Made by a program: the position numbers and the translations under genes
Shown here: positions 1 through 21,206 of the stretch, piece after piece
Numbering within the stretch: position 1 is the first letter of the stretch
Layout: each line of letters begins with the position of its first letter
Source: Ochromonadaceae sp. CCMP2298
Lineage: Eukaryota > Sar > Synurophyceae > Ochromonadales > Ochromonadaceae
Direction of reading: 5' to 3'
Length of the DNA: 21,206 nucleotides
NCBI GenBank assembly: GCA_026770595.1
Contig: MU633855.1
Location: 1-21,206 of the forward strand
Notes under the pieces: model-generated
What the model saw: the letters and a program-made list of their open reading frames with translations, nothing else
Databases searched by the model: none
What the model was told of the DNA's origin: nothing

Positions 1-285
1 CTCTGGGTGCCAAAGTGGGCTTTGGGGCAGGTCCCCTCAGCACACCGGAAACAGGGCTGTGGCATCCGGCAAGCCATCCTGCCTGGCCTCTGAGATTCTT
101 CATCGCTTGGACTCCTTAAGAGCTCCCACAGCCACTTCGAGGCTCCCAAGGTCCGCGTTACTCGCGTCTACAGTTCATTGGCACCGCGGGTGAGCCCCAA
201 TCCATTTTCCAGCGCGTCCAGATTCGCATGAACGGCCCTGCCCGCCTCAGGAGTGCGTGAGACCAGGAGAAGATCGCGACGAACG

Positions 286-3200
286 ATGCGGCCAGGAGCA
301 CGAAGCTTCCCCGGCCTGTGGCTGCTCGTCTTATTAGCCTTAGCCACTCTACGCGACTCGCTGGCCGCGTGCTTGAATGGCTGTAGTCTCAAGGGCCGGT
401 GCAATGTGTACAGCATGTGCGATTGCTTCGAGGGTCACGAGGGTAACGACTGCTCGCGCAAGAGCTGCCCCAAGGGACCCGCGCTCTCAGACTCGCCCTA
501 CGCGCTGGACACTGCACACGCAGAGGTGGAGTGCAGCAACCAGGGGCGGTGCGACTACTCTACGGGCGTGTGCTCGTGCAGCCCGGGCTTCCAGGGTCGC
601 GCCTGCCAGGCCACTCGCTGCTTCAACGACTGCAGCGGGCGGGGCGTCTGCATGAGCCTCAAGCAGGCGGCTGAGTTCAACGACGGCTTCCAGTTCAACC
701 GCACCACCAGCTACGACCGGTGGGACGGAGAGGTCTTCTCTGGCTGCAAGTGCGACCCAGGCTTCTCAGGCCCCGATTGCTCCCAGCGCGTGTGCGAGTA
801 CGGGCCTGACCCACGCCTGTCCGTGGAGCCCCGAGAGAGAGTGACCCTAATATGCTCGTGCTTCCCCTCGTGCAGCGGCAAATTCAAGTTGCGCATGTTT
901 GGAGTGCCTCTGAGGGTGTGGCACAAGGCGGAGACAGTGCGGGCCTTCGAGATCGCAGACGCCATCATGAACACGCCTGGAGTGTGGGGCAACAACAGTG
1001 GCCACGTGGAGGCGCCTGTGATCGCCACCATCAACACTGTGGACGACTTGGTCTGCCAGCCCAATGCGTTGACGACCACCACGATCAACTTCCGCCGCAA
1101 CCATGGAGACCTGCCCTCCATCTCCTTCTACGCGCAGCTCATGACTAAGGGCTCTCTGCACTTCCAGACACTACAGACGCTCAACTGCGACTGCGTGGAG
1201 CAGGCCTGCAATGGCACCTTCCGCGTGTCCTTCGACGGAGAGATGTCGGGCAGACTGAGCACCTGGGGCAACGGAGCAGACGTGACCGCCGCACTGGCGG
1301 GCATGGCGACCTTCAAGGCAGCAGGCCTCAGCATCAGCACGCACCCGGACAGCGCATCAACGCCCGTCTGCGTGCCCGGCTCAATGGGCAACCACAGTAT
1401 GGTCATCACGGGATTGTCTGGGAACGCCCCGCGCATAGGCGTGTGGAGCAGTGTGGTGAAGGACAAGAGCCCCGAGGCCTACGACAGTGTCAACAGCTCC
1501 TCTGTGCTGCGACTCACCACCTCTGACGGCAGAGACGACCACGTGAAGCTGTGCAACGGCATTGGCAAGTGCGACTACGCAACGGGTCAGTGCGGCTGTC
1601 CCTTCGGCTGGGGCTTCGATGCTGACCTGGGCGTGTGCGGCTCGCTGCAGGTCAACACATCGAGATACGCAGGTCTGGGCCGCTGTCCCGGTGTGGGCGT
1701 GCTCTCTGCTCCCACCAAGGACCTATCTGGCAGCCGCAACTACCAGACCACGATATACATCAGCCTCAACCCCGAGTACGTGCTAAAAGAGAGCGCTCAG
1801 TCGGCCAACAAGACCCTGAGCGGCATCTACTCCTTCGCTTGGCGGCCTGACACCATCAAAGGGCCCGACATCGACGAGAGCACCAGACAGCTCTTCGTCA
1901 ACCTCAGCAGCAACAGCTCTGCAGGCCCGCTGCTGATCGACGGCACTCGCGACCGCATCTTCTTCGTGGACCAGCACGCAGACACACCCTACATCGGCAT
2001 CGCAACCCTAGGGGGGCCGCTGGGCAACCTGACTGTGTGGCTCAGCGTCAGCTACCGTATCTTCGGTCTCACCTCTTACGCCCACTTCGACGGCCGCCGC
2101 CTCTACTGGACCGTGCCCGGAACAACTGGCGGCGACGTGCGGGATGGAGGCATCTACTACGCCGATATGGACCAGGAGCTGGGCACTGCTGTGTCGCTAG
2201 TGGCTGCCATCGGGCAGGTGCACGTGATCGACCCGCACGGCATCGCCATCCACTACAAGCAGCGCCGCATCTACTGGACTGACAAAAACGTGACGGAGAA
2301 CAACCGCGCGGGTGTGCTGCGCAGCTGCAACTTTGACGGCAGCCAGGTACTGGAGGTGCTGGTGCTGCGTACCTTCGACAACCACACAGTGAGCACCAAC
2401 CTCACGGACCTCGTGATCGACTTCGTGCACAACAATACGGCCTTCCTGCTCGATGCGGGCCAGCCCTCTGCCGTCATCGCAGCCAACCTGGACTTCCCCG
2501 AGTACTACAACAAGGACAACGCCACTGGCATCGTGGACGCATGGGTGGGGTTCAAATCCACTCGAGTGCTCGCGAACGAGTGGGCCATCACCATCGGGGA
2601 CCCCACCTACCTGGGCATCGACGACAACGCATTGATTCTGCTATGGTCGGACGCATCGGAGAAGGTCATCAACTTCGTGCGTTACGTCAAGCAGTTCCTG
2701 GATCTCTTCTCGCCAGGAGTGGTCTACACCCCCATAATGGACACGCGCCAGAAGAGTCTGCGGGAGTTCTACCCAGTGGCCATGGTTATCGACAAGGGAC
2801 TGGGCCCCCCTAAGTGGGACGACTACACGGAGTGCTACGGGAACGGGGTGTGCGTGGGAAGGGGGGGAAACTTCGAGTGCCGCTGCAACAAGGGATTCTT
2901 CGGGGACTGTCAGGCAAGAACCTGTCCGCTGGGAAAAGCGTGGTTCCACGAGCCAGCGGCAGACAACGTGGCGCACGACGAGCAGGCAGAGTGCTCAGCC
3001 ATGGGCGTGTGCGACAGAGGCACAGGCCAGTGCTCCTGCCGCAGCGGCTTCGAGGGTGAGGCCTGCGAGCGCCTCTCCTGCCAGGGCCGCATCTCAGCAT
3101 CCTCCGCATGCTCCGGCCGAGGTCGCTGCCTCTCCCTGCGCCGACTAGCTGAGCAGCACCGAGACGACGCACTGGCCTCTACAGCAGTGGTGTACGGCTC

Positions 3201-3873
3201 CTCTGCGGGCGATCCCAACACGTGGGACGCGGACATGGTGCAGGGCTGCCAGGCAGACGACTACGGGTTCCTGAAGACCCCATACGAGATCTACAACATC
3301 TCGTCAGCGGCAGGGCCGGCTCTCAGCGGGTACGACTGCCCCAGGGGCTACAACACTAGGCTGTTGGACGCAGGCATATACGTCAGCTACGACGCCAACT
3401 ACAGCAACCCCAGAGAGGTGCAGGAGGTATACTGCGCCGCTAACGAGGGCAGCTTCCAGCTCAGCTTCCGCGGACACACCACCCGCTCCATCAACGCCAA
3501 CGCCTCAGCCGACCAGCTGGTCAAGCTGCTGGAGGAGCTGCCTACGCTGGGCAGGGTGCAGGTGTCCTACGATGAGGGGCAGACGAACCTGTGCTCCGCC
3601 CCCAACAACTACAGAGCCCGAGTCACCTTCGTCTCGCTCGTGGGACCAGTGGCGCTGCTGGAGGTGGTCAACCAGAACGTCTTGGGGCACCCAGGAGAGG
3701 TGACTGTGACACGTCTGAGCGAGGGCGTAGTGGAGGGGCTGTTCGAGTGCTCGGGCAAGGGGGATTGTGATCGATTCACAGGCCGCTGCAAGTGCTGGAA
3801 TAACTACGGGTCTTCAGACGGCATAGGGGGCCCGGGAGACCGCGGGGACTGCGGACACAACCTGATATTCTAA
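286..3873 (+). CDS. Secreted EGF/YWTD-repeat protein, candidate SIG1/Ocm1-type mastigoneme protein
   Basis: Single-exon gene encoding 1195 aa. The first ATG of the frame is at 286; the open frame reaches further upstream but has no earlier ATG. Residues 1-27 form a signal peptide (basic start, Leu-rich core, small residues before cleavage). Residues about 28-180 hold three to four EGF-like modules with regular Cys spacing. The middle has two clear LDL-receptor class B motifs (RRLYWT near 604, RRIYWTD near 660), which indicate a YWTD beta-propeller. A second EGF block starts near 849 and a last EGF-like module closes the protein with RGD at 1186-1188. Many N-x-S/T sequons are present. No C-terminal membrane segment or GPI-like tail is seen, so it should be secreted. 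Cys-rich EGF blocks at both ends of a long chain are typical of stramenopile SIG1/Ocm1 tubular mastigoneme proteins; I infer that role. A general extracellular adhesion protein (often labelled tenascin-like) is the alternative. Confidence 0.85.
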   Translation: MRPGARSFPGLWLLVLLALATLRDSLAACLNGCSLKGRCNVYSMCDCFEGHEGNDCSRKSCPKGPALSDSPYALDTAHAEVECSNQGRCDYSTGVCSCSPGFQGRACQATRCFNDCSGRGVCMSLKQAAEFNDGFQFNRTTSYDRWDGEVFSGCKCDPGFSGPDCSQRVCEYGPDPRLSVEPRERVTLICSCFPSCSGKFKLRMFGVPLRVWHKAETVRAFEIADAIMNTPGVWGNNSGHVEAPVIATINTVDDLVCQPNALTTTTINFRRNHGDLPSISFYAQLMTKGSLHFQTLQTLNCDCVEQACNGTFRVSFDGEMSGRLSTWGNGADVTAALAGMATFKAAGLSISTHPDSASTPVCVPGSMGNHSMVITGLSGNAPRIGVWSSVVKDKSPEAYDSVNSSSVLRLTTSDGRDDHVKLCNGIGKCDYATGQCGCPFGWGFDADLGVCGSLQVNTSRYAGLGRCPGVGVLSAPTKDLSGSRNYQTTIYISLNPEYVLKESAQSANKTLSGIYSFAWRPDTIKGPDIDESTRQLFVNLSSNSSAGPLLIDGTRDRIFFVDQHADTPYIGIATLGGPLGNLTVWLSVSYRIFGLTSYAHFDGRRLYWTVPGTTGGDVRDGGIYYADMDQELGTAVSLVAAIGQVHVIDPHGIAIHYKQRRIYWTDKNVTENNRAGVLRSCNFDGSQVLEVLVLRTFDNHTVSTNLTDLVIDFVHNNTAFLLDAGQPSAVIAANLDFPEYYNKDNATGIVDAWVGFKSTRVLANEWAITIGDPTYLGIDDNALILLWSDASEKVINFVRYVKQFLDLFSPGVVYTPIMDTRQKSLREFYPVAMVIDKGLGPPKWDDYTECYGNGVCVGRGGNFECRCNKGFFGDCQARTCPLGKAWFHEPAADNVAHDEQAECSAMGVCDRGTGQCSCRSGFEGEACERLSCQGRISASSACSGRGRCLSLRRLAEQHRDDALASTAVVYGSSAGDPNTWDADMVQGCQADDYGFLKTPYEIYNISSAAGPALSGYDCPRGYNTRLLDAGIYVSYDANYSNPREVQEVYCAANEGSFQLSFRGHTTRSINANASADQLVKLLEELPTLGRVQVSYDEGQTNLCSAPNNYRARVTFVSLVGPVALLEVVNQNVLGHPGEVTVTRLSEGVVEGLFECSGKGDCDRFTGRCKCWNNYGSSDGIGGPGDRGDCGHNLIF

Positions 3874-4064: not shown

Positions 4065-5684
4065 TCACGTCCCGAGTTTCTGTCTTTTGAAACCAGGCGC
4101 GTCTGTCCCCGTCTCAGCGCAGTGTCGACACAGGTAGGCGTACAGAGGCCCCGCCACCAGGGGGTCGTCCGCAGCGCATAGCACGCCCTCCCGCACCAGC
4201 AGCCGCAGATTGGCCATGGCCGCTGCCCAGTGCCCGCCCCCATGTGTCTGCCCCTCCGTCTGTCCCGTCTTCGTCTGTCCCTCCGTCTGCTCTGCCTGCA
4301 CGAAGACATATGTCTGTGCGTCGTTGCAGGGGAAAGACTTGCGGTCCAAGGCTTTCCTGTTGGTGTACCCGGGATAGGCGCACTTGTCGAAGCACACCCT
4401 ATAGGCGCACAGGTACCCCGCACCCGCACCCAGCGTCTGCAGGCCCCACCAGCAGAAGGGCTCCACGGTCTTGTGCGTCAAGTGCACCTCGCTCCAGCCA
4501 GCACCATCCCCTTCCCCATCACCCCCAACCCTCCTGCCCCCCCTGCGCAGGAAGGGGCCCACGTTTCGAAAAAAGTCTCCCAGCAACTCCTTGTTCGCAA
4601 GCAAGTCCGCCGCCTGACCGTCCACCCCCTTCGCCAGGCTGATGCAGGGGAAGTTCCAAATTATTCGGTCGAAGCGCCGCGGCCTTGGTTTGCGCGCGTT
4701 CGTGCCCTCTGACTCCGCTTCAGCCCCTTCCTTTCCTTCCTTCCCTTTCTTCCCTTTCTTCCCTACCTTCGGTGTCTTCTCCCTGGCGGGTTTGAGCAGT
4801 TCCGCAGTGCCCCGCAGACAGGTGGCGTCCACACAGTGGAGCACCGTCACTGAGGCAGAAGCCACACCCTCCCCCTGCCCGGCCTCCCGCAGCTGCTTTA
4901 GCACATCCTGCACGTATGGTGTGTACGTACTGCACACAGAGGCGTGCGACTCGTGGGATGTTGCCACCAGCTGCGAATAATCTGCGTCTCCATCTGCGTC
5001 TGCATCGGCGTCAGATCCCCTTGCCAGCCTCTGCCTTTGCCGCAGCAGGCTCTGGGCCAGGCAGAGCGAGAATGTGAAGTCCCCGTCGCCCAGCGTCAGC
5101 AGCCGCTGCGAACACCGGTACAGGCCGTCACCCCCACCCCCACCCCCACTGCTGCTCCCAGCAGCAGTGGCGCCCCCAGCCCCGCTGCGCGGACACATCT
5201 CCGGTCGCTGGTTGCGCGGGAAACTGAAAGTGGGGACCGCTCCCTGCTTCTCCATCCCACTGCTCGCTGCCTCCCGAAGTCGGTGAGTGAGCGGGTCCTG
5301 TGCCCCTTCAGGGAATATCTTGTACAGGCAGGGCACGCAGTGGTTGAGCAGCAAGCAGCGCATAGTGGAGCACTGCAGGTACAGGGGCGCGTCGCCCACT
5401 TGCGGTGCTGGAGTTGGACTATCCTCTGCTAGTGTGTCAACAGCGGTGCCCTCCTTGCCCTTTCTGCGGTGCTTCTCTCGCCGCGCTGCAGAGACGTCGG
5501 CGCTCATGCTCGGACTGATGCAGGGACTGATGACTGCGCTGTAAGCGCGTAAACGAGCCGGCTGCCCCACCTCTCTCTGGCCGCCGCCCTTAGGAGCAGA
5601 GGTTATGTCCACGAGGGGGGCTGCGGAGGTAGAAAATTGGATCGAAACTTGGATCACACTGTGATCCAAGTGACAAGCCCTCAT
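4065..5684 (-). CDS. DUF2431 / BMT5-like 25S rRNA (uridine-N3) methyltransferase
   Basis: Uninterrupted frame of 539 aa. Counting from the Met at 5684, the SAM-binding motif LLTLGDGDFTFSLCLA (195-210) and RRFDRIIWNFPC (336-347), followed by GVDGQ, ENK-like and FF positions, match the Rossmann-like DUF2431 domain. So do EVHLTHKTVEPF (399-410) and YPGYTNRK (437-444). In yeast the family member Bmt5 methylates a uridine of 25S rRNA in the nucleolus. The domain spans about 194-465 and is interrupted by low-complexity inserts: a Ser/Asp/Ala repeat near 224-236 and a Lys/Gly/Glu tract near 303-325. The tail repeats TEGQT. The start is uncertain. An in-frame Met at 5507 opens onto a Lys/Arg-rich N-terminus and would leave room for a promoter towards the divergent LRR gene, whereas the 5684 start puts a palindrome inside the coding region. 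It converges on gene 1, with 191 bp between stops. Confidence 0.8.
   Translation of the reverse strand: MRACHLDHSVIQVSIQFSTSAAPLVDITSAPKGGGQREVGQPARLRAYSAVISPCISPSMSADVSAARREKHRRKGKEGTAVDTLAEDSPTPAPQVGDAPLYLQCSTMRCLLLNHCVPCLYKIFPEGAQDPLTHRLREAASSGMEKQGAVPTFSFPRNQRPEMCPRSGAGGATAAGSSSGGGGGGDGLYRCSQRLLTLGDGDFTFSLCLAQSLLRQRQRLARGSDADADADGDADYSQLVATSHESHASVCSTYTPYVQDVLKQLREAGQGEGVASASVTVLHCVDATCLRGTAELLKPAREKTPKVGKKGKKGKEGKEGAEAESEGTNARKPRPRRFDRIIWNFPCISLAKGVDGQAADLLANKELLGDFFRNVGPFLRRGGRRVGGDGEGDGAGWSEVHLTHKTVEPFCWWGLQTLGAGAGYLCAYRVCFDKCAYPGYTNRKALDRKSFPCNDAQTYVFVQAEQTEGQTKTGQTEGQTHGGGHWAAAMANLRLLVREGVLCAADDPLVAGPLYAYLCRHCAETGTDAPGFKRQKLGT
5647..5671. repeat. 25-bp inverted repeat (12-bp perfect arms, 1-nt centre)
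   Basis: The left arm acttggatcaca (5647-5658) is the exact reverse complement of the right arm (5660-5671), with a single base between. It lies between the divergent methyltransferase and LRR genes, or inside the first codons of the methyltransferase if that gene starts at 5684. It could be a dimeric transcription-factor site or an RNA hairpin. No transcription factor can be named from the sequence. Confidence 0.7.
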
Positions 5685-5879
5685 CCTTCACCAACCGTGC
5701 TGGGACATCCCCAAAAGATACTTCATCCGGATCGCTTCAGAAGGTTTTTTCCCCAACACCATTGTCTTGGCCTTTTCGACTTTAGTTCGGCCATGGCCTC
5801 TCATCCCATGTCGCGTGGTGCTGATGTGGACGAGAGGACAAGCTCTGAGTAGCAGCGGACATATGCGCAGTGGCTCAAC

Positions 5880-7575: not shown

Positions 7576-9116
7576 CTACCGGATTTGGAAGTCCTCCAGG
7601 AAGCTGAACATCCAGAAGAAGTCCCAAGTTAGCCCCCCCCTCTTGGTGCTCTGCAGCTGGTAGCCCCTAGTGCCGATGCCCTTGCCAGAGCGGACGTCTG
7701 TGCGTTCAGTGGTGCCCGACAGTCGCTGCGCAGATAGCACGAAGGTAGAGAGCATCGAGACGCCGCCCTTGCGCCAGGCCAGCACTGTGTTGGCCAGGGA
7801 GAGCGCGTACCAGTCGAAGACGAGGTCCAGCAGCCCCTCATTGGAGGTGGCCTCCTTCAGGCGGGCCAGGTTCTTCGCATGCATCACCCCCCGACTCTGC
7901 ACCTGCATCACCTTCACACGCGCTGCGAGGAGCTGGTTTGCGGATATTTTCTCGAAGAAGGCCTGTTTCACCTCCTGGTTGTCCGCCGCCAGGTACACGT
8001 AGAAGGGAGCCACCGCCTTGGTCACCACTCCCTCCACTACTACTGCCCCTGCCTCCACTGCATCTGCGGCGATGCGTGGGCGCGCTGCGTCCACCAGCTC
8101 TACCAGCCTGCTCTCCATGGCCTGGAAGACGTCCCTGCACTCGCTGCCGTTCAAAAACTCTGCCACCTCCTGCAGACCGGGGATAGGGGACAGACAGGGG
8201 ACATGGGGGGCGAGGGAGAAGGTAAGAGGATCGGAGGGAGTAGCAAGGAATATGGAGAAAGGCGAATGGAAAAGAACATATAAAGATGGAACTGCCGCTG
8301 AATACTGCGCTTTGAATACTGCTACCGAACCTTTCTGTACTGCGGGTCGTCCACGCTGGCCTGCTGCTCGAAGTGGTGGAACTGGGGACGCAGGTGCACT
8401 GCAGCGTCCAGGCGGGGCGCGTACGCATGCGGTAGCGTGAGTAGCGCGTGCTTGAGCATGTCTGGCACGCCGTGGATGCGCTTCTCCTCCTCTGCTGAGA
8501 GGTGGCTCTGGAAGGGTCCGCGTACGAGTCTCTGGAAGGCGTGTCTCTCCGCGCAGCCCACGTCCCCCAAATCGCAGCCCGTGAGCCTCTGCACGCAGTG
8601 CACTGTCGTGTTGAACCACAGGAACCAATCCGTCTTGCTCTGGTAGCCCGCTGCCCGCACCACCTTGGATGTGATCTGTCTGCTGCCCTCCATGAAGCGC
8701 AGGAAGTCTTCCGACTTTATGTTGTCTGCATTGGCCAGGGCCTCGGGCGTCAGGATCTCCGGGAAGGCCAACGACACCTGCGAGACGAAAGGGAAGCCGC
8801 AGTGTACAATGGAGCACATCGCCCCGACGATCGACTGGTCACTTATGATGATGTCGCGGCCCGTGATGGCGGCGAAGTAGTACGCGGCGGGGTAGAAGAT
8901 GAGGATGTTGCCCAGGCCCGCGCCGCCCCCATTCTCGGAGCCCAGAACCATAAACTTGCGGTCTACGTTCTGTGCTGAGCCGCCGACGTCGGGGTCTCTG
9001 CACTGGATGGGTGTCAGTGCGCCGCTCTCGCGAACAAGGAGCAGCGAGAGCAGCAGCAGAGGCAGCATCAGTAGCGGCGAACGCGAGCGCCCCGAGGAGC
9101 GAGAGACTCCCCACAT
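7576..9116 (-). CDS. Secretory-pathway protein resembling fucosyltransferases (GT11/GT23/GT37-like fold)
   Basis: Two exons, 9116-8331 and 8169-7576, joined in phase 0 (AAG|GT...CAG|GAG) across a 161-bp intron, give 459 aa. Residues 14-28 are a Leu-rich signal peptide or signal anchor. The order of conserved blocks fits GT-B fucosyltransferase-like enzymes. GGGAGLGNILIFYPAAYYFA (63-82) resembles the N-terminal G-x-G-L-G-N block, followed by TGR. AVHLRPQ (239-245) sits where the donor-binding H-x-R motif lies. PFYVYLAADNQEVKQ (317-331) matches the strand-D(D) block, and FDWYALSLANTVL (380-392) with STF (403-405) matches the C-terminal D-x-x-x-L-S...S-S-F block. These blocks are short, so the family call is an inference and the sugar donor is unknown. 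It lies head to head with the sulfotransferase/oxygenase fusion gene, and the strong C/G third-position bias matches that gene. A nearby Golgi role is plausible. Confidence 0.6.
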
Positions 9117-9626
9117 ACCGGCGGTCTATTGCGGATCCTGGGAGATGGATCCCTTGTCCAGCAGTCGATCAAAGGCGGACACATTGTGAGAGGACTCCTG
9201 CTGGACTTACCTCTCACATCAATCACAAAGTAAAAGGTATTGAATATGCGCAGATACAATCGGAAATGGTTGTTTAAATGTCTATCTATCTGACACATCT
9301 GCACATCTCAACACACCCTGAGTGAAATGTATCAGGGTGAATGTAGCAAAGAAAACTACAACACATGAAAACCGAAATCGGTGCTTGTATTCTGCAGGGC
9401 TTCATGCTGCAGTTTTCTTCTCCAGTGCTCCATTGCTTCTTATCTGGCTTCTTGCGGCGGTCGACAGCTTTCAGTGCAGCCAGCGGGTGGGGGATAGCGC
9501 AGCTGATTTGTGGCGCGGACGCTGCACGGCTTGAGGAGGAAGATCAGGACGCGTACAGAGCGGGGAAGCAGTATAATATAGCTGTGTAGTGGAACAGCAC
9601 GGAGTACAACAGACCGCATTGCAGGC
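9117..9626. promoter_or_regulatory. 510-bp divergent (putatively bidirectional) promoter region
   Basis: The region lies between the start codons of the minus-strand glycosyltransferase-like gene (9116) and the plus-strand sulfotransferase/oxygenase gene (9627). It is richer in A/T than the flanking coding sequence. A TATA-like stretch (gtataatata, 9571-9580) lies about 50 bp upstream of the plus-strand ATG. No coding sequence is convincing. Shared control of both genes is inferred from the arrangement only. Confidence 0.4.
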
Positions 9627-12600
9627 ATGAGCGGAATTACTCCGAGCAAGAACCCGCTGACGCCTAGCAAGGGCGGCCGCAGCAAGCCCAAGGGCGGCAC
9701 AGGCTTCCTGTCTGTGGTCATCTGCGTGCTGCTCTGCTGCATGCTGGGCGTGGGCGTGCTGCTGATGGTCACCATGCTGCCATCGGACGGAGCCACCGGT
9801 CCCGCCATCAACTCGCTGCTGGGCCCCTCCTCCGATGCCAGTAACTCGAAGCTGCTCAGTTTCAGCGAGAAGATTGCCAAGTGGGTGCCGCGCCTGCAGG
9901 AGGGCCAGGGCCTGCGCGGAGCGGAGGATCGGGTCACGCCCCCGTGGGAGAAGGAGTTCTGGACGCCTATCGACATAGTGGACGTGGATAGCACGCCGGT
10001 GGTGATCCTGTGCAAGTTGAACTTCAGGGAGTACAGCGAGCAGCCGCACCTGACCTCCATGTTCAAGGACCTGGTGGCCAAGAGCAAGTGCATGGGCGGC
10101 AACAGGCGCAGAGAGAGCCTCAAGAGCCTGCTGGAGGAGATTAACGACCCCAACGGCGGCGAGAGTGCGCGCGTGGTGGCTCCTAACGGGTTCGTGTTCC
10201 ACGAGAGCAGAGTGGGCAGCACCCTGGTGGCCAACTTCCTTGCCTCAGACCCGCTCAGCCTCGTGTTCAGCGAATCGGCGCCAGCTGCCAACGCGCTGCT
10301 GCACTGCGACGCCTGCACTCGCGAGCACAAGGTGCAGCTGTTCCGGGACGTGGTGACGCTGATGGGCCGGTCCCCCTTCCACCAGCACCTGTTCTTCAAG
10401 TTCCAGAGCATCACTGTCACGCACATGGACATAGCCTTGGAGGCCTTCCCAGAGGTGCCTTGGGTGTTCGTGTACCGGCAACCAGTGCAGACGATGATGT
10501 CACACATGGACCCTAGGAAGGACAACAACGGCAACGCGCCCTGCATGAGATCCAAGCGCAGGCCCCCTAAGGAGGTGCAGGCGGACATAGACAAATACGT
10601 CACGGGCTGGGGCGCGCCCAACGAGGCCTGGTGAGTAACACAGCAACCAGATCGGGAGTGGGTTGAACATGACGCACTAGCTTATCCCCTCTAACGCAAT
10701 TCTTTCCCCTTTTCCACCTTCCCCCCCCCCCCTCCATCCCTGCCCCCCTGCCCCACAGGTGTGCGGCGCACCTGAACATGCTATGCTCCTCCGCCGTGCG
10801 CAGCATGGAGAAGTATGGGACGCACAAGACGGAGGTAGGAGGAGAGAGCGTGCTGGTGCAGCGCGGCCTGTTCCTGAACTACGACTCGCTGCCCGGCATC
10901 GTGCCCGCGGTGCTGCTGCCGCACTTCGGGGTGGACCCAGTGCCTGCACGCTGGCTGCGCAAGATCTCGGAGGAGTCGGGGCAGTACAGCAAGTCACGCG
11001 GATCCAAGGCGGGCGTGTTCCTGGGCGACTCTAAGGACAAGGTGGAGCACTCCACGCAGCTTATCAAACAGTACGGAGAAGCCATACTGGGCCCCACCTA
11101 CGAGCTGATGCAGAAAAAGGCGCTGCTGGTGCTGGAGAGCGCTAGACCCGGCGCCATCGATCTGGTACTATCTCAGAGCGGGAAGACGATGGTGGATTTC
11201 GACTGGAAACTATTCAGCCCGCTGTCCAGTGGCGGGAGTGGGAGCGGGAGTGGGAGCGGGAGTGGGGGCGGGAGTGGGGGCTCTGCGGCGACGGGCAGGT
11301 GAGTGATGCTTGCCTGCCCTGCCTGCCATATCTGCTCTGTCCGTAATTATATCCATACTCATGTCCATTTATGCCCGTTTGTATGTGGATCGGTTATCCT
11401 GCTGTCTCCCTTAAACGGATTAGCTAGGCGCTCACATCTGCACTTTTTCTTTCTTGCCCCCACCACAGCGGCCTCTCTATCGTCCCAGCCCCAGTGTCAG
11501 TGCCAGTGGGTGAGTCGGGGGAGGTGCCGCACAGTCGGGTGCTGGAGCAAGTGGAGTTCCGAGCAGACATGCCCTTCGGCAACCACCACTCCTCCCGACC
11601 CGTGCAGGCCGCCCACTGCCCCCTGCAGCCCGATGCCGACTACCCCCGCGCCTACAGCATGATCGACATCGTGCGTAACTGGAACCCCGACAACACCACC
11701 ATCCCCCCCACGCACTACGATAGCCTCTGCCACTTCGACTGCGCCAACGCCACGCAGCTGCAGCAGGCATACACATACCGCGCAGCAGAACTGCCCTTCG
11801 TGGCCTACAACATAGAAGAGATCGACGCAGTGGTGAAGAAGTGGTCCGACCTCAACTACCTGGAGGGGAAGATGGGCACCACCCGCTACCGCACTGAGAA
11901 GTCTGTCTCTAACCACTTCATGTACTGGAGCAACGCCAGGGACAAATTCCTGCGCACAGCCCAGGGCAAGAACTGGACCGCACCCACCGAGATCAAGCAG
12001 ACCACGTATCAGCAGTGGATGCAGACAGCCATCACGCAGCACAACAACAGTCTGGCGAAGAGGGAGCATGAGTACTTCAGAGTGAGCTCAGACACCCCCT
12101 GGCTGTCTGCAGAGCTGCCCTTCTTCAAACCTGTCAAGAACCTGCTATTGGTAGACCCAGCAGGGCAGCAGGGCATCCACTGCAGGTACCTACCCCTCCA
12201 TGCAAATGTGCTGTACCCCTTCTGTTCTGTAAACGTGTATTTAACCCCCTCCTTTACTATAAATGTTTATTTAACCCACAGGTTCGGTATGCGTTCGGTC
12301 ATCGCGGAGGCTCACTTCGATGGCACCCGCAACTCCGTAGTGGAGCTGGCAGGCATTCGGAGATGGATTATGACCCATCCAGACCAGGTAAGCCTCCTCT
12401 CCTCCTCTCCTCCTCTCTTCCCCTCTCCCTCCCTTCCTGTGTACACTTTGCGACACTGACCCCCTTCTCCGACACCGAACACCTGAACACCTAGTGCAAG
12501 GACATGCACATGCTACCCCGGGGCCACCCCAGCGGGCGGCACAGCCAGGTGGACTGGTCAGCCCCCGACCTGCAGAAATACCCCAACTTCGCCAAGGTAA

Positions 12601-12853
12601 TCACAATCCTAGTACAGCCCTCCCTACAGCTCTCCCTCGAACCTTAATTCCACCTTCCACCCCCCCTTCCTCCTTCCCTACCTCCTCCCCCCAGGTGAAG
12701 GGCCACGAGGTGATCCTGGTCCCAGGGGACTTCCTGTTCGTGCCCACCTACTGGATACACTACATCGTCTCGCTCAACGTCAACATTCAGTGCAACAGCA
12801 GATCAGGCATGTCGCGCGTATACGACGGAGCCATTCACAAGTGCGGCTTCTAG
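9627..12853 (+). CDS. Membrane-anchored sulfotransferase-like / cupin_8 (JmjC-like) oxygenase fusion protein
   Basis: Six exons (9627-10630, 10759-11298, 11469-12185, 12282-12387, 12495-12596, 12695-12853) join in frame to 875 aa. All introns are GT-AG; the first three are phase 2 and the last two phase 0. Residues 27-50 are one membrane segment after a short Lys/Arg-rich tail, a type II Golgi-enzyme layout. A sulfotransferase-like P-loop follows (FHESRVGSTLVANFL, 191-205), then PWVFVYRQP (278-286) with Ser292, matching the PAPS 5'- and 3'-phosphate sites. EAWCAAHLNMLC spans intron 1. A Gly/Ser linker (about 491-514) leads to a C-terminal cupin_8/JmjC-like domain (about 620-875): KSVSNHFMYW, then EAHFDGTRN, RRWIMTHPDQ and PTYWIHYIVSLN. 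The Fe(II) triad is H765-x-D767...H845, all present. I infer that the protein sulfates and/or hydroxylates secreted glycans or proteins; both substrates are unknown. The splice phases and open reading argue for one gene rather than two. Confidence 0.82.
11231..11280 (+). repeat. Hexanucleotide repeat encoding a Gly/Ser linker
   Basis: About eight imperfect copies of gggag(t/c) or gggggc encode a Gly-Ser alternation at the end of exon 2 of the sulfotransferase/oxygenase gene, just before the phase-2 intron at 11299-11468. It forms the flexible joint between the two enzyme-like halves. It is a slippage-prone sequence and its length may vary between alleles. Confidence 0.8.
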
Positions 12854-14292: not shown

Positions 14293-14602
14293 ATCAACAA
14301 TAAGTGAGGAATAATTCCCTAGGGACACATGGGAACGAAAAAAGGGACGGGAAAGTGGGACAAAATTTGGTGGCGAGTGGTGGCTCTCTTCGCCGAATGT
14401 GCAAGCCGAGGATCTGTGCGAGTTGGTAGGAACCTAGGTTGGAAGGGAGCTGTGGGAGACCTGCATCCACTCTTCACACCCATCGGCTAGAGCTACTCAG
14501 AGTAGTCGTGTGAGCGTACGTGCACAGCGAACGCTAGCGAGACAGCGGGACAAACGCAACCTGCGAATCTGTGGAAATTTGCGACGACCGATAACCTGAG
14601 AG

Positions 14603-17600
14603 ATGAGCAAATTTGCCGCAACCTCCGAGCCCAAGGCGGCGCCCAAGTCAACCAATAGAAGGGACCACCTGCGCGATATCGAGCAGCGCGTGCAGGCGCA
14701 GTGGGCCGCGGACAAGGTGTACGAGGTGGAGGTGGACCTGACCCGCGAGAAGTACATGCTCTCCTTCCCCTACCCATACATGAACGGACGCCTTCACCTT
14801 GGCCACGCCTTCAGCCTGACCAAGGCCGAGTTCACTGCTCGCTTCCAGCGCCTGCAGGGCAAGAACGTGATGTTTCCCTTCGGCTTCCACTGTACGGGCA
14901 TGCCCATCCAGGCGGCGGCCAACAAGCTGCGGGAGGAGATGGCCAACTACGGATGCCCCCCGGACTTCCCAGAGCACACCCAGCCCATGCAGGTTGAGGA
15001 GAAGACGGAGACAGCGGAGCAGCAGCTGGCCAACAAGTCGAAGGGCAAGAAGACCAAGCTGGCGGTGAAAGGGCTCACGGGTCCTGCGAGGCAGTGGGAC
15101 ATCCTGGCCAAGATGGTGCCCCTGGAGGACATCCCCCTCTTCGCAGACCCCATGAAGTGGCTCAACTACTTCCCCCCACTGGGTGTGCAGGACTTGACGG
15201 CGTTCGGCAGTGCTATCGACTGGCGGCGCAGCTTCATCACGACGGCTGTGAACCCCGTGTACGATGCCTTCATCCGGTGGCAGTTCAACCTGCTGCAGAA
15301 GGGAGAGCGGTGAGTGCATCGGGGGATAAGAGCGCGCCTGTGCAGAGTGTGATCTACCTCCCTCATGCTCTAACGTCTTGACGCTCTATTGCTCTTACCC
15401 TTACCTCCTTATCCCCTTCCTTCCACCTCACCTCTCCCGTCCCTGCCCCCCTCCCCCCGCAGCATCCGCTCTGGCTTCCGCCCCAACGTGTACTCGGTGA
15501 AGGACAAGCAGGTGTGTGCGGACCACGACCGCTCCTCAGGCGAGGGCGTGTGTCCCCAGGAGTACACCCTGGTGAAGCTGGCAGTGATCACCCCCTACCC
15601 CGCAGACAGCAAGCTCAACCACCCCGCCCTAGCAGGCAAGCCTCTGTTCCTGACGCCTGCCACTCTGCGTCCCGAGACGATGTACGGGCAGACCAACTGC
15701 TTCGTGCTGCCTGAGGGGGAGTACGGGGCGTTCGAGTTCAAGAACGGAGAGGTGTACATAATGTCTGAGCGATCAGCTCTGGGCCTGGCTCACCAGGACG
15801 CCGCCACTGAGTGGGGCAAGGTCAACTGCCTGCTGAAGCTCACCGGCCAAGATCTGCTGGGCCTGCCCCTGCGTGCGCCCTATGCTGTGTACGAGACCGT
15901 GTACACCCTGCCCCTGATGACCATCTCCATGGGCAAGGGCACGGGCGTCGTTACATCCGTGCCCTCTGACGCGCCTGACGACTACGTGGCTCTGAAGGAG
16001 CTGCAGGACAAGCCCCTGTGGAGGGAGAAGTTCGGACTGACCGCGGAGATGGTGGAGCCCTTCGAGGTGGTGCCCATCATTGAGATACCGGGGTACGGGG
16101 ACAAGTGCGCGGTGACGATGTGCGAGAAGCTGGACATCAAGTCCAGCAAGGAGAAGGACAAGCTCAAGGCGGCCAAGGACGAGGTGTACCTCAAGGGCTT
16201 CTACGAGGGAGTCATGCTGGTGGGCTCATGTGCGGGCATGAAGGTGTGCGACGCCAAGCCCATCGTGCGCAAGGAGCTCATGGACCTGGGACTGGCCCTG
16301 CCCTACTTCGAGCCTGAGAGCTTAGTGGTGGGTCGCTCGGGTGATGAGTGCGTGGTGGCTTTGACTGACCAGTGGTATCTGTTCTACGGTGATGAACAGT
16401 GGAAGGGCCTGGTGTCGACGCACCTGCACAGCGCGAACTTCAACAGCTATAACACGGGCGTGCTGGACGCCTTCGATAAGGCAGTGGACTGGCTGAAGGA
16501 GTGGGCCTGCAGCAGGGAGTTCGGACTGGGCACGCAGCTGCCCTGGGAGAGCAAGTGGGTCATCGACTCGCTCTCTGACTCCACCATATACATGGCTCTG
16601 TACACGATCGCGCACAGGTTCTTCGGATCTAGCGGCTTCGACAACCTCAACCTGGCGGGAGAGGCGGGCGCACCCTGCGGGATCAGCCCGGTCGACCTGA
16701 CGGACGAGGTCTTCGACTTCATCTTCCTGCACAAACCCCTGCCCGCAGGTGTCACCACGCCCATCGCCGAGTCTCTGCTGCAGGAGCTCAGGGGCGAGTT
16801 CGAGTACTGGTACCCTATGGACCTGCGCGTGTCCGCCAAAGACCTGATCCCCAACCACCTCACGATGTGCCTGTACAACCACGCAGAGGTGTGGAAGGAC
16901 CAGCCGCACATGTGGCCCAGGGGCATCTACTGCAACGGACACATCATGGTGGACGCCGAGAAGATGTCCAAGAGCAAGGGCAACTTCCTCATGCTGCTGG
17001 AGTGCTGCGAGGAGTTCACTGCGGACGCTACTCGATTCGCACTGGCAGATGCGGGGGACACTCTGGAGGATGCCAACTTCGACAGGGCGGTGGCCAACCA
17101 GGCCATCACCTACATGGTCATAGAGGAGGAGTGGATCAAGCAGCTGCTGGCGGACGCACAGGCGGGCAACCTGCGCACCGGTGAGCCCATATGATGCGAT
17201 GCTGCTTCCGTTAGCCGCGCTTACCACTAATTTTCCCACGAACCCGTACCCCCACCCTGCTTATGATGCTGCTGTATACTGCTGTGTGCCCCTTTTTTCT
17301 GCTGCCTCCTCCCTCTCCGCAGATGAGGAGATGGTTTTCATGGATCGCGCCTTCAACAACGAGATCGACTACCTCATCGCAGCCACCTTCGCCGAGTACG
17401 ACAAGATGTGCTACAGAGACGGCATCCACAGGGCCTGGTTCGACATGATGATCGTCAGGGACTTCTACAGGGACTGGTCGCTTAAGTGCAACGTGCCCAT
17501 GCACCAAGCAGTGGCCATGCGGTTCGTGGAGGCGGTGGCGGTGATGATGGCGCCCATCACTCCTCACTGGTGCGAGCACGTGTGGGGCCTGTTAGGGCGC

Positions 17601-18170
17601 AAGGGCACAGTCAACGACGCAGCCTGGCCCGCCTTCCAGCCCGCGGACCGCATGCTTCGCAAGGAGTACCTGTTCTTCAGAGACTTCGTTAAGAACATCC
17701 GCATGGGCACGATCAAACTCAAGGTGGCCCCGCCCAAGTGCGCCTGTATCTACCTGGCCAGCACCTACGAGGCGGTCAAGGTGGACGTGCTGCTGCACAT
17801 GCAGGGGCAGTGCGACGCTGAGGGCAAGTTCCCCTCCGACTTCATCAAGGGCCTGAAACCCTACCTGGAGTCTCAGCCGCAGCTCCTCTCTCACACAAAG
17901 CCCCTGATGCAGTTTGCCTCCTTCATGAAGGACGAGGCGAACGAAAGAGGCGCAGACGCGCTAGCTGTGGTGCTGCCCTTCGACCAGAGAGCTATCATAC
18001 AGGAGAACGCGGTCTACGTGCTGGCTGCGCTGGACCTGGCCCACATCAGCATCCTGGACGTGGAGGACGCCGCCTCCGCCTCTGCGCCCAGCGTGGACAA
18101 GAAGAAGATGGGCATGGCGGTGCCTGGCAAGCCCTCCTTCAGCCTCTACACTGGCACGGCATCCAGCTGA
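14603..18170 (+). CDS. LARS: Cytosolic leucyl-tRNA synthetase (class I, eukaryote/archaeal type)
   Basis: Three exons (14603-15309, 15463-17180, 17323-18170) join in phases 2 and 1 to encode 1090 aa, close to the usual 1100-1170 aa for eukaryotic cytosolic LeuRS. It charges tRNA-Leu with leucine using ATP. The class I HIGH motif appears as FPYPYMNGRLHLGH (55-68) and KMSKS is exact at 736-740. The editing (CP1) domain lies between them, with TLRPETMYGQTN (303-314) and the hydrolytic region SDAPDDY (404-410), so proofreading of mischarged tRNA should be intact. The C-terminal anticodon-binding region contains AFNNEIDYLI and MAPITPHWCEHVW. No organelle presequence is evident at the N-terminus. 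The ATG at 14603 is the first in the frame and lies 48 codons before the catalytic core. Codons are strongly C/G-ending, as expected for a highly expressed gene. It converges on the CDK gene. Confidence 0.93.
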
Positions 18171-18743: not shown

Positions 18744-19868
18744 TTACATGGCGTTGGCCATGTCAGCCAGGTAGGCGTGCTCCAGCGCGTCCTTGCAGCT
18801 GATGCGTCTCCTAGGATCCAGGTGCAGCAGCTGCTCCAGCAGGTCCACGCCAGACTCGCTCAGGCCGGGTGCGCTGCGGCTGATCTGCAGAGAGGGCCAC
18901 ACGGGGAAGTCCTCGTTCCAGTCCTGCAGACCGGTCACGCCAGGCCAGGTCTGCTCGTTGGGGGTGCCCAGCACGCGGAATATCTTGAAGAGCTCGTCCA
19001 CCTCGCTGTCCCCTGGGAACAGAGGTCTCTTGGTGACCATCTCTGCCAGGATGGTGCCCACAGACCACGTGTCCACGGGCAGGCTGTAGGTCTTGCAGCC
19101 CAGCAGGATCTCGGGAGCGCGGTACCAGAGAGTCACCACCTCGTGGGTGAAGGGGCGGATGGGGGGGACGAAGGCGCGGGCTAGGCCGAAGTCCGCGATC
19201 TTCAGGCGGCCGTCCCTAGACACGAGGATGTTCTGGGGCTTGAGGTCGCGGTGCATCACACCTCTGACGTGGCAGTAGTGCATTCCCCTCAGCAGCTGCG
19301 CCATGTAGGACTTGATCAGCTGCGGGGACAGGGGCCCGTCGCAGGCCTCGAAGTATTTCTTGAGGTCCTTGTCCACGAACTCGAACACCAGGTACAGGCG
19401 GCCCTCGCTCTGCACCACGTCGTTCAGCCTGCGCGGGAGAGGGGGAGAGGTGGTTGGGGGAAAAAGGGGCGGAGGGCGGTGAGGGATGTACGCGGGCGCG
19501 TTTGTGCGGGGTGTCGGTAGGGTGTTGGCTTGCGGACGAATAGACAGATAAGATGGAGGTAGAGGCGGAGGACTTACTCGACGATGTTGGGGTGCTTCAG
19601 CTGCCTGAGGACGGAGATCTCTCTCAGCGTTGTGCTAGGGATGCCCTCGTCCTCGACCTCAAGGCGGATTCTCTGCAATTAGTTTGGAGGAGTCGTGTTA
19701 ATTTCAAGTTTCTGGTCTATGACATCGTTGCCACCGCTGAAATTAGGCCGGCGACTGTACCTTCAGAGCCACAATTTCGTTGGTCTGCTTGTCCTTGGCC
19801 TTGTACACCACTCCGTAGGTACCGGCACCGCATTCGCCATTTTTCTCGATCTTCTGGTATCTCTCCAT
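18744..19868 (-). CDS. Cyclin-dependent kinase, CDK1/CDKA-like with PSTTLRE helix
   Basis: Three exons (19868-19761, 19672-19578, 19428-18744) join in phases 0 and 2 to 295 aa, the length of CDK1/CDK2. It is a Ser/Thr kinase that drives the cell cycle when bound to a cyclin. The sequence shows catalytic Lys36 (VALK), the cyclin-binding helix PSTTLRE (48-54) in place of [15 protein letters not shown] (127-134), DFGLARAF (147-154) and the activation-loop Thr162 in [14 protein letters not shown]. Thr17-Tyr18 correspond to the inhibitory Thr14-Tyr15 of CDK1. The glycine loop reads [12 protein letters not shown], three residues longer than the usual IGEGTYGVV; the extra residues lie inside exon 1, so they are not a splicing choice. 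The helix variant falls between A-type (PSTAIRE) and plant B-type (PPTALRE/PPTTLRE) kinases, so A or B assignment needs a tree. All catalytic residues are present. Confidence 0.93.
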
Positions 19869-20407: not shown

Positions 20408-21202
20408 TTAGTAAGGGCAGCCTTTTGCCCTTTGTCTCTCTCTCCTGATTGACCATCTGCATCTCTGCATAACGCCCAATATCTCCCTATCCGTCTGGTA
20501 CTGCTCACTAAAATGCTCCAATACTGAATCATCCATTTCCCAGTTGTTGTGTTCGGCGGCTATCATGCAAAGCTCCCTATCACTCCGCAGCTCGTCAGCA
20601 GCGTACTCGAAATTGTGCGCGTCTTTTCGCACCAGTTCTAGTACTAGCGCTCTATCTGCCCTTATGTGCTCAGGTGCTTGCCTAAGTATGGGTTGGTTAT
20701 CGTCATCCCTACCATTAGATGCTCTGATTTTTGCAAGGTCTACTTCTGGGTGTGTGTTTTGCAACGGATATCCCATTCCCCTCCCATACTCAGCTCGCCA
20801 GGCTTCTTGGCGATGCATGGCGTAGTACAGGTCATTCTGGTCATTTGGAAAGGCATCATATGCGTTAGGAGTATATTTGTAGGAGTGCTTGGCACGGCAG
20901 ACCACGTCGGTGCAAAACGAAAGATCTGTACTTTCTGATAAGACAATTTGGGCCATCTTCCATATCGTCAGGGGGAGGGTGGGGTCCTCTGCCCCCTCTC
21001 CCTCCTCTCCCTCCTCTCCCTCCACTCCCTCCTGTCCCTCACGTTCCTCCTCTCCATCCTCCTCTTCCTCCTCCCCATCCTCCTCTCCCTTCTCTTCCTC
21101 ATCCTCTACCTCCTGTGACCCAAGATGAAGGTTCAAGTATATATTGTGTGTTAAGTTCATTACATCACGAGCAGAGCAGAGTGGGGCAGAGAAGGCAGAC
21201 AT
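20408..21202 (-). CDS. DUF4116 repeat protein with acidic low-complexity region
   Basis: The frame encodes 264 aa from an ATG at 21202, only four bases from the window end, so the true start may lie outside. Residues 31-73 are an almost pure Glu/Gly/Asp tract, encoded by a polypurine/polypyrimidine stretch at about 20984-21112. The C-terminal part (about 181-250) has DUF4116-type units: RADRALVLELVRKDAHNFEY, LRSDRELCMIAAEHNNWEM and YQTDREILGVMQRC. These follow the family pattern of D-r-e-(l/i)-x-l...v...(g/n)..l. DUF4116 has no assigned function and occurs in large numbers in some algae and protists. Codon use is far less C/G-biased than in the neighbouring kinase and synthetase. No signal peptide or membrane segment is evident. 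Confidence 0.65.
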   Translation of the reverse strand: MSAFSAPLCSARDVMNLTHNIYLNLHLGSQEVEDEEEKGEEDGEEEEEDGEEEREGQEGVEGEEGEEGEGAEDPTLPLTIWKMAQIVLSESTDLSFCTDVVCRAKHSYKYTPNAYDAFPNDQNDLYYAMHRQEAWRAEYGRGMGYPLQNTHPEVDLAKIRASNGRDDDNQPILRQAPEHIRADRALVLELVRKDAHNFEYAADELRSDRELCMIAAEHNNWEMDDSVLEHFSEQYQTDREILGVMQRCRWSIRRERQRAKGCPY

Positions 21203-21206
21203 GCAG

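Follow-up and report, generated by a model that had tools for sequence, protein, structure and literature searches.

The window examined here (21,206 nucleotides; positions 1 to 21,206 of contig MU633855.1, forward strand, GenBank assembly GCA_026770595.1, from Ochromonadaceae sp. CCMP2298) carries a gene at 9627..12853 on the forward strand that joins a predicted sulfotransferase-fold domain and a Cupin_8/JmjC oxygenase domain in one polypeptide. Its six exons join without a stop into 2628 nucleotides (875 amino acids plus the stop codon), which confirms the six in-phase exons proposed in a first-pass annotation of the bare sequence, and all five introns run from GT to AG in the window sequence. 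From the N-terminus, the protein consists of a basic tail, a single predicted membrane helix, the sulfotransferase-fold domain (~113-487), a Gly/Ser linker and the Cupin_8/JmjC domain (~545-875). Both domains are of known kinds, and their combination appears to be new; no description of a sulfotransferase-JmjC fusion was found among the titles and abstract openings listed in searches of an open-access library, and subscription papers could hold one. We see about an even chance that the protein is a type II membrane enzyme with two lumenal activities, hydroxylation and sulfation, directed at a single class of secreted substrate.

The two-half architecture is conserved far beyond chance. A search with the full-length protein, in which the 7,995 candidates sharing most words with the query were scored, returned 103 proteins, of which 46 align over more than 200 residues in each half; the others comprise 4 with the N-half and part of the C-half, 18 with part of the N-half and the C-half, 15 with the N-half only and 20 with the C-half only. 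Relatives P0002-P0045 were matched at E 2e-207 or better, with 42-61% identity. The earlier claim that one polypeptide joins both domains is upheld by these 46 two-half relatives, by two structure models and by the conserved catalytic positions. The named relatives are chrysophytes and diatoms, and most relatives are metagenomic; their source names include 'JmjC domain-containing protein', 'Cupin-like domain' and 'hypothetical protein', and among the 103 a sulfotransferase domain had been precomputed on P0075 only. The sulfotransferase half is invisible to the usual annotation. A paralogue in the same genome (contig C552, 1800-10999; locus L024) carries both halves in many small exons, and three of its introns lie, as read by eye, at the codon positions of introns 3-5 of the window gene (inside the Arg codon before FGM, before CKD and before VKG). 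The deposited protein P0017 (710 amino acids, Ochromonadaceae sp. CCMP2298) ends in an apparent intron; the annotated model apparently lacks the final cupin exons, and these lie further downstream on C552.

Trees of the two halves (118 rows for the C-half, 66 for the N-half; a quick method with SH-aLRT, the Shimodaira-Hasegawa-like approximate likelihood ratio test, as the only support measure) largely separate fused from standalone proteins. Rows with too little coverage or of unclear class were left out, the latter being, for the C-half, proteins with the domain near the start and no N-half match and, for the N-half, proteins with no C-half match that were not clearly complete. One side of the C-half tree holds 66 fused rows among 77 and the other 39 standalone rows among 41; the corresponding figures for the N-half tree are 50 of 53 fused and 11 of 13 standalone. 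Because both trees place the fused proteins P0065 and P0075 with the standalone proteins (and, for the N-half, on long branches), the fusion either is old and was later split, or arose more than once; these two may represent a second fusion event or a relic of the old one. Some standalone rows, P0132 among them, lie within the fused side and may reflect genuine loss or fragmentary gene models. The pairwise distances of the two halves correlate across 44 two-half proteins (r 0.77), a value reached in none of 999 permutations. Sequence scans that used two short peptide patterns each, which distant kin could escape, turned up no relative in prokaryotes or viruses: among viral contigs none of 27 pattern matches for the whole family and none of 21 for the N-half was confirmed, nor was any of 48 matches in genome contigs scanned with the N-half.

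A hydrophobic segment precedes the domain in 37 of 43 two-half relatives, in 25 of 53 N-only proteins and in 38 of 107 C-only proteins. Many of the remaining one-half proteins look like exon fragments; anchored examples are the cupin-only P0086, P0100 and P0118 and the sulfotransferase-only P0263, P0271 and P0102, and the transcript-derived P0272 has a borderline segment (1.59). That each partner, when on its own, can have a membrane anchor in front of it makes a good argument that the two meet in one compartment. The conserved fusion predicts that the sulfation and oxygenation steps belong to one pathway; by extension, it suggests a setting for membrane-anchored cupin-only diatom proteins and for sulfotransferase-only proteins of other organisms.

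The N-half was modelled apart (model mb105201069ac), because the PDB comparison of the full-length model had returned the cupin half only. It is predicted to adopt a sulfotransferase fold with a 5'-phosphosulfate loop and a 3'-phosphate Arg...Ser pair, and would use 3'-phosphoadenosine 5'-phosphosulfate (PAPS) as its sulfate donor. In the loop sequence at residues 191-205, FHESRVGSTLVANFL, four residues are nearly invariant (R195 in 169/172 relatives, G197 in 172/172, S198 and T199 in 170/172 each), and the 3'-phosphate residues R284 and S292 are kept in 135/144 and 133/147, all counts being drawn from proteins gathered by words shared with the query, a procedure that favours conserved motifs. 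The catalytic residues of the tyrosylprotein sulfotransferase TPST2 are R78, E99, K158 and S285 (PMC5562738); by motif and spacing, the first three correspond to R195, E216 and K258. The loop Arg and the Glu are 21 residues apart in both proteins, the Lys and the 3'-phosphate Arg 26 in the window protein versus 25 in TPST2, and the R-to-S spacing of 8 at the 3'-phosphate site is the same. Since the sequence routes failed, this correspondence is drawn from the fold and from hand-matched motif spacing. Viral sulfotransferases match the N-half by fold only, the best being a Synechococcus phage protein (E 7e-4). Pfam Sulfotransfer_3 (PF13469) is matched by 40 of 51 N-half relatives at a lenient E<=1 (best 3.2e-6), and it had been precomputed on four listed relatives (P0075, P0225, P0267 and P0313).

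The C-half scores 74.6 bits against Pfam Cupin_8 (cut-off 27.4; residues 617-857), barely passes the cut-off for JmjC_2 (22.8 vs 22) and stays below that for JmjC (16.9 vs 24). In the full-length model it takes the double-stranded beta-helix of the FIH/JMJD5 kind; the structural match to FIH stops at FIH residue 321, and the modelled protein comes to its own end at that point. The HxD...H iron triad is intact, with H765 in 189/190 relatives, D767 in 189/189 and H845 in 185/186. In an ungapped alignment to FIH, R780 (Arg in 189/193) fills the slot of K214, which we take to be the lysine that binds the C5 carboxylate of 2-oxoglutarate; an Arg can serve in other 2-oxoglutarate oxygenases. With the triad intact and the FIH lysine replaced by Arg, use of 2-oxoglutarate by the C-half is likely. 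A halogenase reading of the cupin half was rejected because D767 is kept in 189/189. The first-pass annotation had placed its motifs correctly (P-loop 191-205, 3'-phosphate stretch 278-292, H765-x-D767 and H845); its Cupin_8 domain with an intact triad is borne out by the Pfam score and by the conservation among relatives, and each half has the fold predicted for it along with the majority of the catalytic residues to be expected there. The hidden Markov model check that it had proposed gave a divided answer, with Cupin_8 above its cut-off and Sulfotransfer_3 below.

The residues before the membrane helix include five K/R and no D/E, which suggests an N-in, lumenal (type II) topology; four N-glycosylation sequons (590, 608, 683 and 707) lie in the exon 3 part of the C-half. 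A predicted N-terminal helix followed by a presumably lumenal catalytic part would fit the layout of type II Golgi enzymes, and the enzyme would sit in the chrysophyte secretory pathway, probably in the Golgi. By analogy with TPST2, the N-half would take its sulfate from PAPS, whose 5'-phosphosulfate would be gripped by R195 and the GST loop and whose 3'-phosphate by R284 and S292; E216 would deprotonate the acceptor hydroxyl, with K258 aiding the transfer. The C-half would act as an Fe(II)/2-oxoglutarate oxygenase of the FIH/JMJD5 kind, with H765, D767 and H845 holding the iron, and would hydroxylate a side chain of a secreted protein. The Gly/Ser linker, disordered in both models (predicted local distance difference test, pLDDT, <50 from residue 496 in the N-half model, and likewise for linker residues 470-488 of relative P0003), could be flexible enough to give both sites access to one substrate, so that hydroxylation and O-sulfation would be coupled; the order of the steps, with hydroxylation first, and the substrate are guesses. 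It is an unlikely refinement that the two halves work in tandem (C-H to C-OH to C-OSO3), the sulfotransferase half sulfating the very hydroxyl that the oxygenase half has installed on an unactivated carbon of a secreted protein. If true, this would yield a sulfated hydroxy-amino acid, perhaps in ochrophyte proteins associated with silica or located at the cell surface; we know of no single enzyme that performs both steps. Nothing was found in favour of the other suggestion made at first pass, a coupling of modification and carrier through the fusion.

Several results weigh against a bifunctional lumenal enzyme, beginning with the selection of relatives mentioned above. The window protein reaches only 12.9 bits against Sulfotransfer_3 (residues 230-294; cut-off 27). 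Against the PDB, a phmmer search with residues 1-485 gave chance matches only (best E 0.17), and profiles of 15 and of 51 N-half relatives retrieved no chain at E<=10; aligning the N-half profile to the lone TPST2 sequence with hhalign produced a probability of 2% in a false register, so that these two profiles against the PDB and the profile against TPST2 yielded no significant sequence homology to TPST. The six best Foldseek matches of the N-half are modest (E 6e-4 to 9e-4, root-mean-square deviation 9-11, TM 0.22-0.31 by query and 0.38-0.48 by target), and no counterpart of the fourth TPST2 catalytic residue, S285, could be placed in the window protein. On the side of the cupin half, the 2-oxoglutarate lysine of FIH is replaced by R780, and the full-length model of relative P0003 has a predicted TM score (pTM) of 0.60, too low to fix the relative placing of the two domains. 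Hydroxylases of secreted proteins are often found in the endoplasmic reticulum and sulfotransferases in the Golgi, so that one address must serve an enzyme of each type.

Among the alternatives, independent action of the halves on different substrates or residues, with the fusion providing a common membrane anchor and equal dosage only, is unlikely and stands up best: either half also occurs by itself, often behind a hydrophobic segment of its own, so that neither needs the other, and the disordered linker agrees with it. However, a large clade has retained the fusion (66/77 rows), and its halves have been inherited together, which functional coupling fits better, and a common anchor alone is a weak reason for keeping a fusion. 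Somewhat less probable is that both domains are active on a non-protein substrate, the protein being a membrane-anchored hydroxylase-sulfotransferase that modifies lipids, polyamines or polysaccharides. A lipid substrate is a live rival here; a chrysophyte case would be the chlorosulfolipids of Ochromonas, built on a 1,14-disulfated docosanediol, which need a mid-chain hydroxyl as well as sulfation. It is less likely again that catalysis is confined to one half and that the other serves for binding or targeting, as a sulfotransferase fold might by recruiting substrate for the oxygenase; the marginal sulfotransferase similarity, the unassigned counterpart of S285 and the exchange of the FIH lysine for R780 speak for it. 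Yet across 171 to 190 sequences the Arg, Glu and Lys counterparts hardly vary, nor do the three iron ligands, and a pure scaffold would have no need of such conservation.

The gene model itself was considered in the light of transcripts. Over residues 1-503, the MMETSP transcript protein P0001 matches the gene product at 100% identity; it thus spans intron 1, which supports the exon 1-2 junction. It departs from the gene at residue 504 and continues in a His/Arg-rich tail of ~42 residues (504-545) that matched nothing in the window or in the strain's own genome, where the searched assembly (11.2 Mb in 724 contigs) is possibly incomplete and an empty search alone shows nothing; because the departure falls inside the GS repeat, a usual place for assembly chimaeras, P0001 is a probable chimaera. 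A search with the C-half returned no identical transcript (best 70%), and exons 3-6 of this exact gene are thus without a transcript of their own. Searches of the own genome scored 772.6, 386.7 and 562.3 bits for exons 1, 2 and 3. At least four two-half relatives are transcriptome-derived (P0002 from Spumella elongata, P0031 from MMETSP1177, 'Ochromo...', P0035 and P0037), and introns therefore cannot mislead in these. The two refuting conditions set at first pass, two separate genes or a half without its fold or active site, were checked to the extent feasible and the outcome favoured the fusion: both halves occur in one protein, in transcriptome-derived relatives among others, and each half shows its predicted fold. 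That two adjacent genes were joined through wrong exon calls, as the departure of P0001 ahead of the cupin half and the missing identical C-half transcript might suggest, is very improbable, given that these four relatives carry both halves in one reading frame, that the C552 paralogue has both halves and shares three of five intron positions by eye, and that P0001 departs where chimaeras usually form.

Features of the fusion gene and its predicted protein in the window (all on the forward strand)
Feature	Residues	Position	Remarks
Exon 1	1-335	9627..10630 (+)	N-terminal tail, membrane helix, bulk of sulfotransferase domain; in-frame reading
Exon 2	335-515	10759..11298 (+)	end of sulfotransferase domain and bulk of Gly/Ser linker; in-frame reading
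Exon 3		11469..12185 (+)	cupin/JmjC half begins; in-frame reading
Exon 4		12282..12387 (+)	putative iron ligands H765 (12313-12315) and D767 (12319-12321); R780 (12358-12360)
Exon 5	790-823	12495..12596 (+)	HPxxRxSxVD stretch in common with FIH (alignment to FIH)
Exon 6		12695..12853 (+)	putative third iron ligand H845 (12758-12760) and stop
Predicted membrane helix	26-50	9702..9776 (+)	seen in model mb105201069ac as H26-50; residue 30 has hydropathy 3.12
Sulfotransferase-fold domain	113-487	9963..11215 (+)	includes intron 1; predicted structure
Putative 5'-phosphosulfate loop	189-205	10191..10241 (+)	R195, G197, S198, T199
E216	216	10272..10274 (+)	counterpart of TPST2 catalytic E99 by motif and spacing; kept in 171/172
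K258	258	10398..10400 (+)	counterpart of TPST2 catalytic K158 by motif and spacing; conserved in 171/171
Putative 3'-phosphate site	278-293	10458..10505 (+)	R284 and S292; conservation and spacing
Gly/Ser linker	~488-515	11216..11298 (+)	low complexity; sequence and model
Cupin_8/JmjC oxygenase domain	~545-875	11557..12850 (+)	includes introns 3-5

The gene has a head-to-head neighbour with a signal-like start at 7576-9125 (reverse strand), ~500 bases from the fusion ATG, and a shared promoter is possible; the two open frames of this neighbour gave no Pfam match at 0.01. Further upstream, a single open frame of 1213 amino acids (232-3873) contains three EGF_2/teneurin-type EGF repeats and would encode a secreted or surface protein, and a BMT5-like rRNA uridine methyltransferase domain (103.8 bits) lies at 4065-5687 (reverse strand). 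Downstream follow a class I tRNA synthetase gene of several exons (14600-18170, of which 15374-17191 was scanned with Pfam; leucine type by motif reading), a protein kinase exon (18747-19634, reverse strand; Pkinase 185.6 bits, CDK-like by reading) and an open frame with one DUF4116 repeat (20408-21205, reverse strand; 45.4 bits) that is cut by the window end.

Compared with known systems, the C-half resembles FIH more closely in sequence than JMJD5/KDM8 and JMJD7, and to our knowledge neither of the latter is fused to a sulfotransferase. FIH is a soluble, single-domain protein, the C-terminal helix of which, beyond residue 321, forms the dimer; where FIH has its 2-oxoglutarate lysine, the window protein has an Arg at the aligned place, and a lumenal location would argue against FIH-type hydroxylation of asparagines in ankyrin repeats or HIF. 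TPST1 and TPST2 (PDB 5wrj and 3ap1) share 14% identity with the N-half, sequence searches gave no significant match to them, and the counterpart of the catalytic Ser was not placed; the TPSTs have no oxygenase domain, whereas the conserved cysteines C227 (161/171), C306 (144/147) and C336 (127/132) are a feature of the window family. Sulfotransfer_3 is carried by some kin of the window protein, which itself remains under the curated cut-off.

On the side of the products, no paper that brings together JmjC, silica, diatom and hydroxylase was found in a search of an open-access library, and we know of no enzymes assigned to the hydroxylated and sulfated residues of diatom silica-associated proteins. 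Secreted plant peptides bear hydroxyproline and sulfotyrosine, and the plant enzymes responsible are separate proteins. The hydroxylated and sulfated residues of the diatom proteins are known chemically, and silaffins contain hydroxylated lysines and sulfated hydroxy-amino acids (PMC4557024). As products, the plant peptides and the silaffins are precedents for a secreted peptide that carries both modifications.
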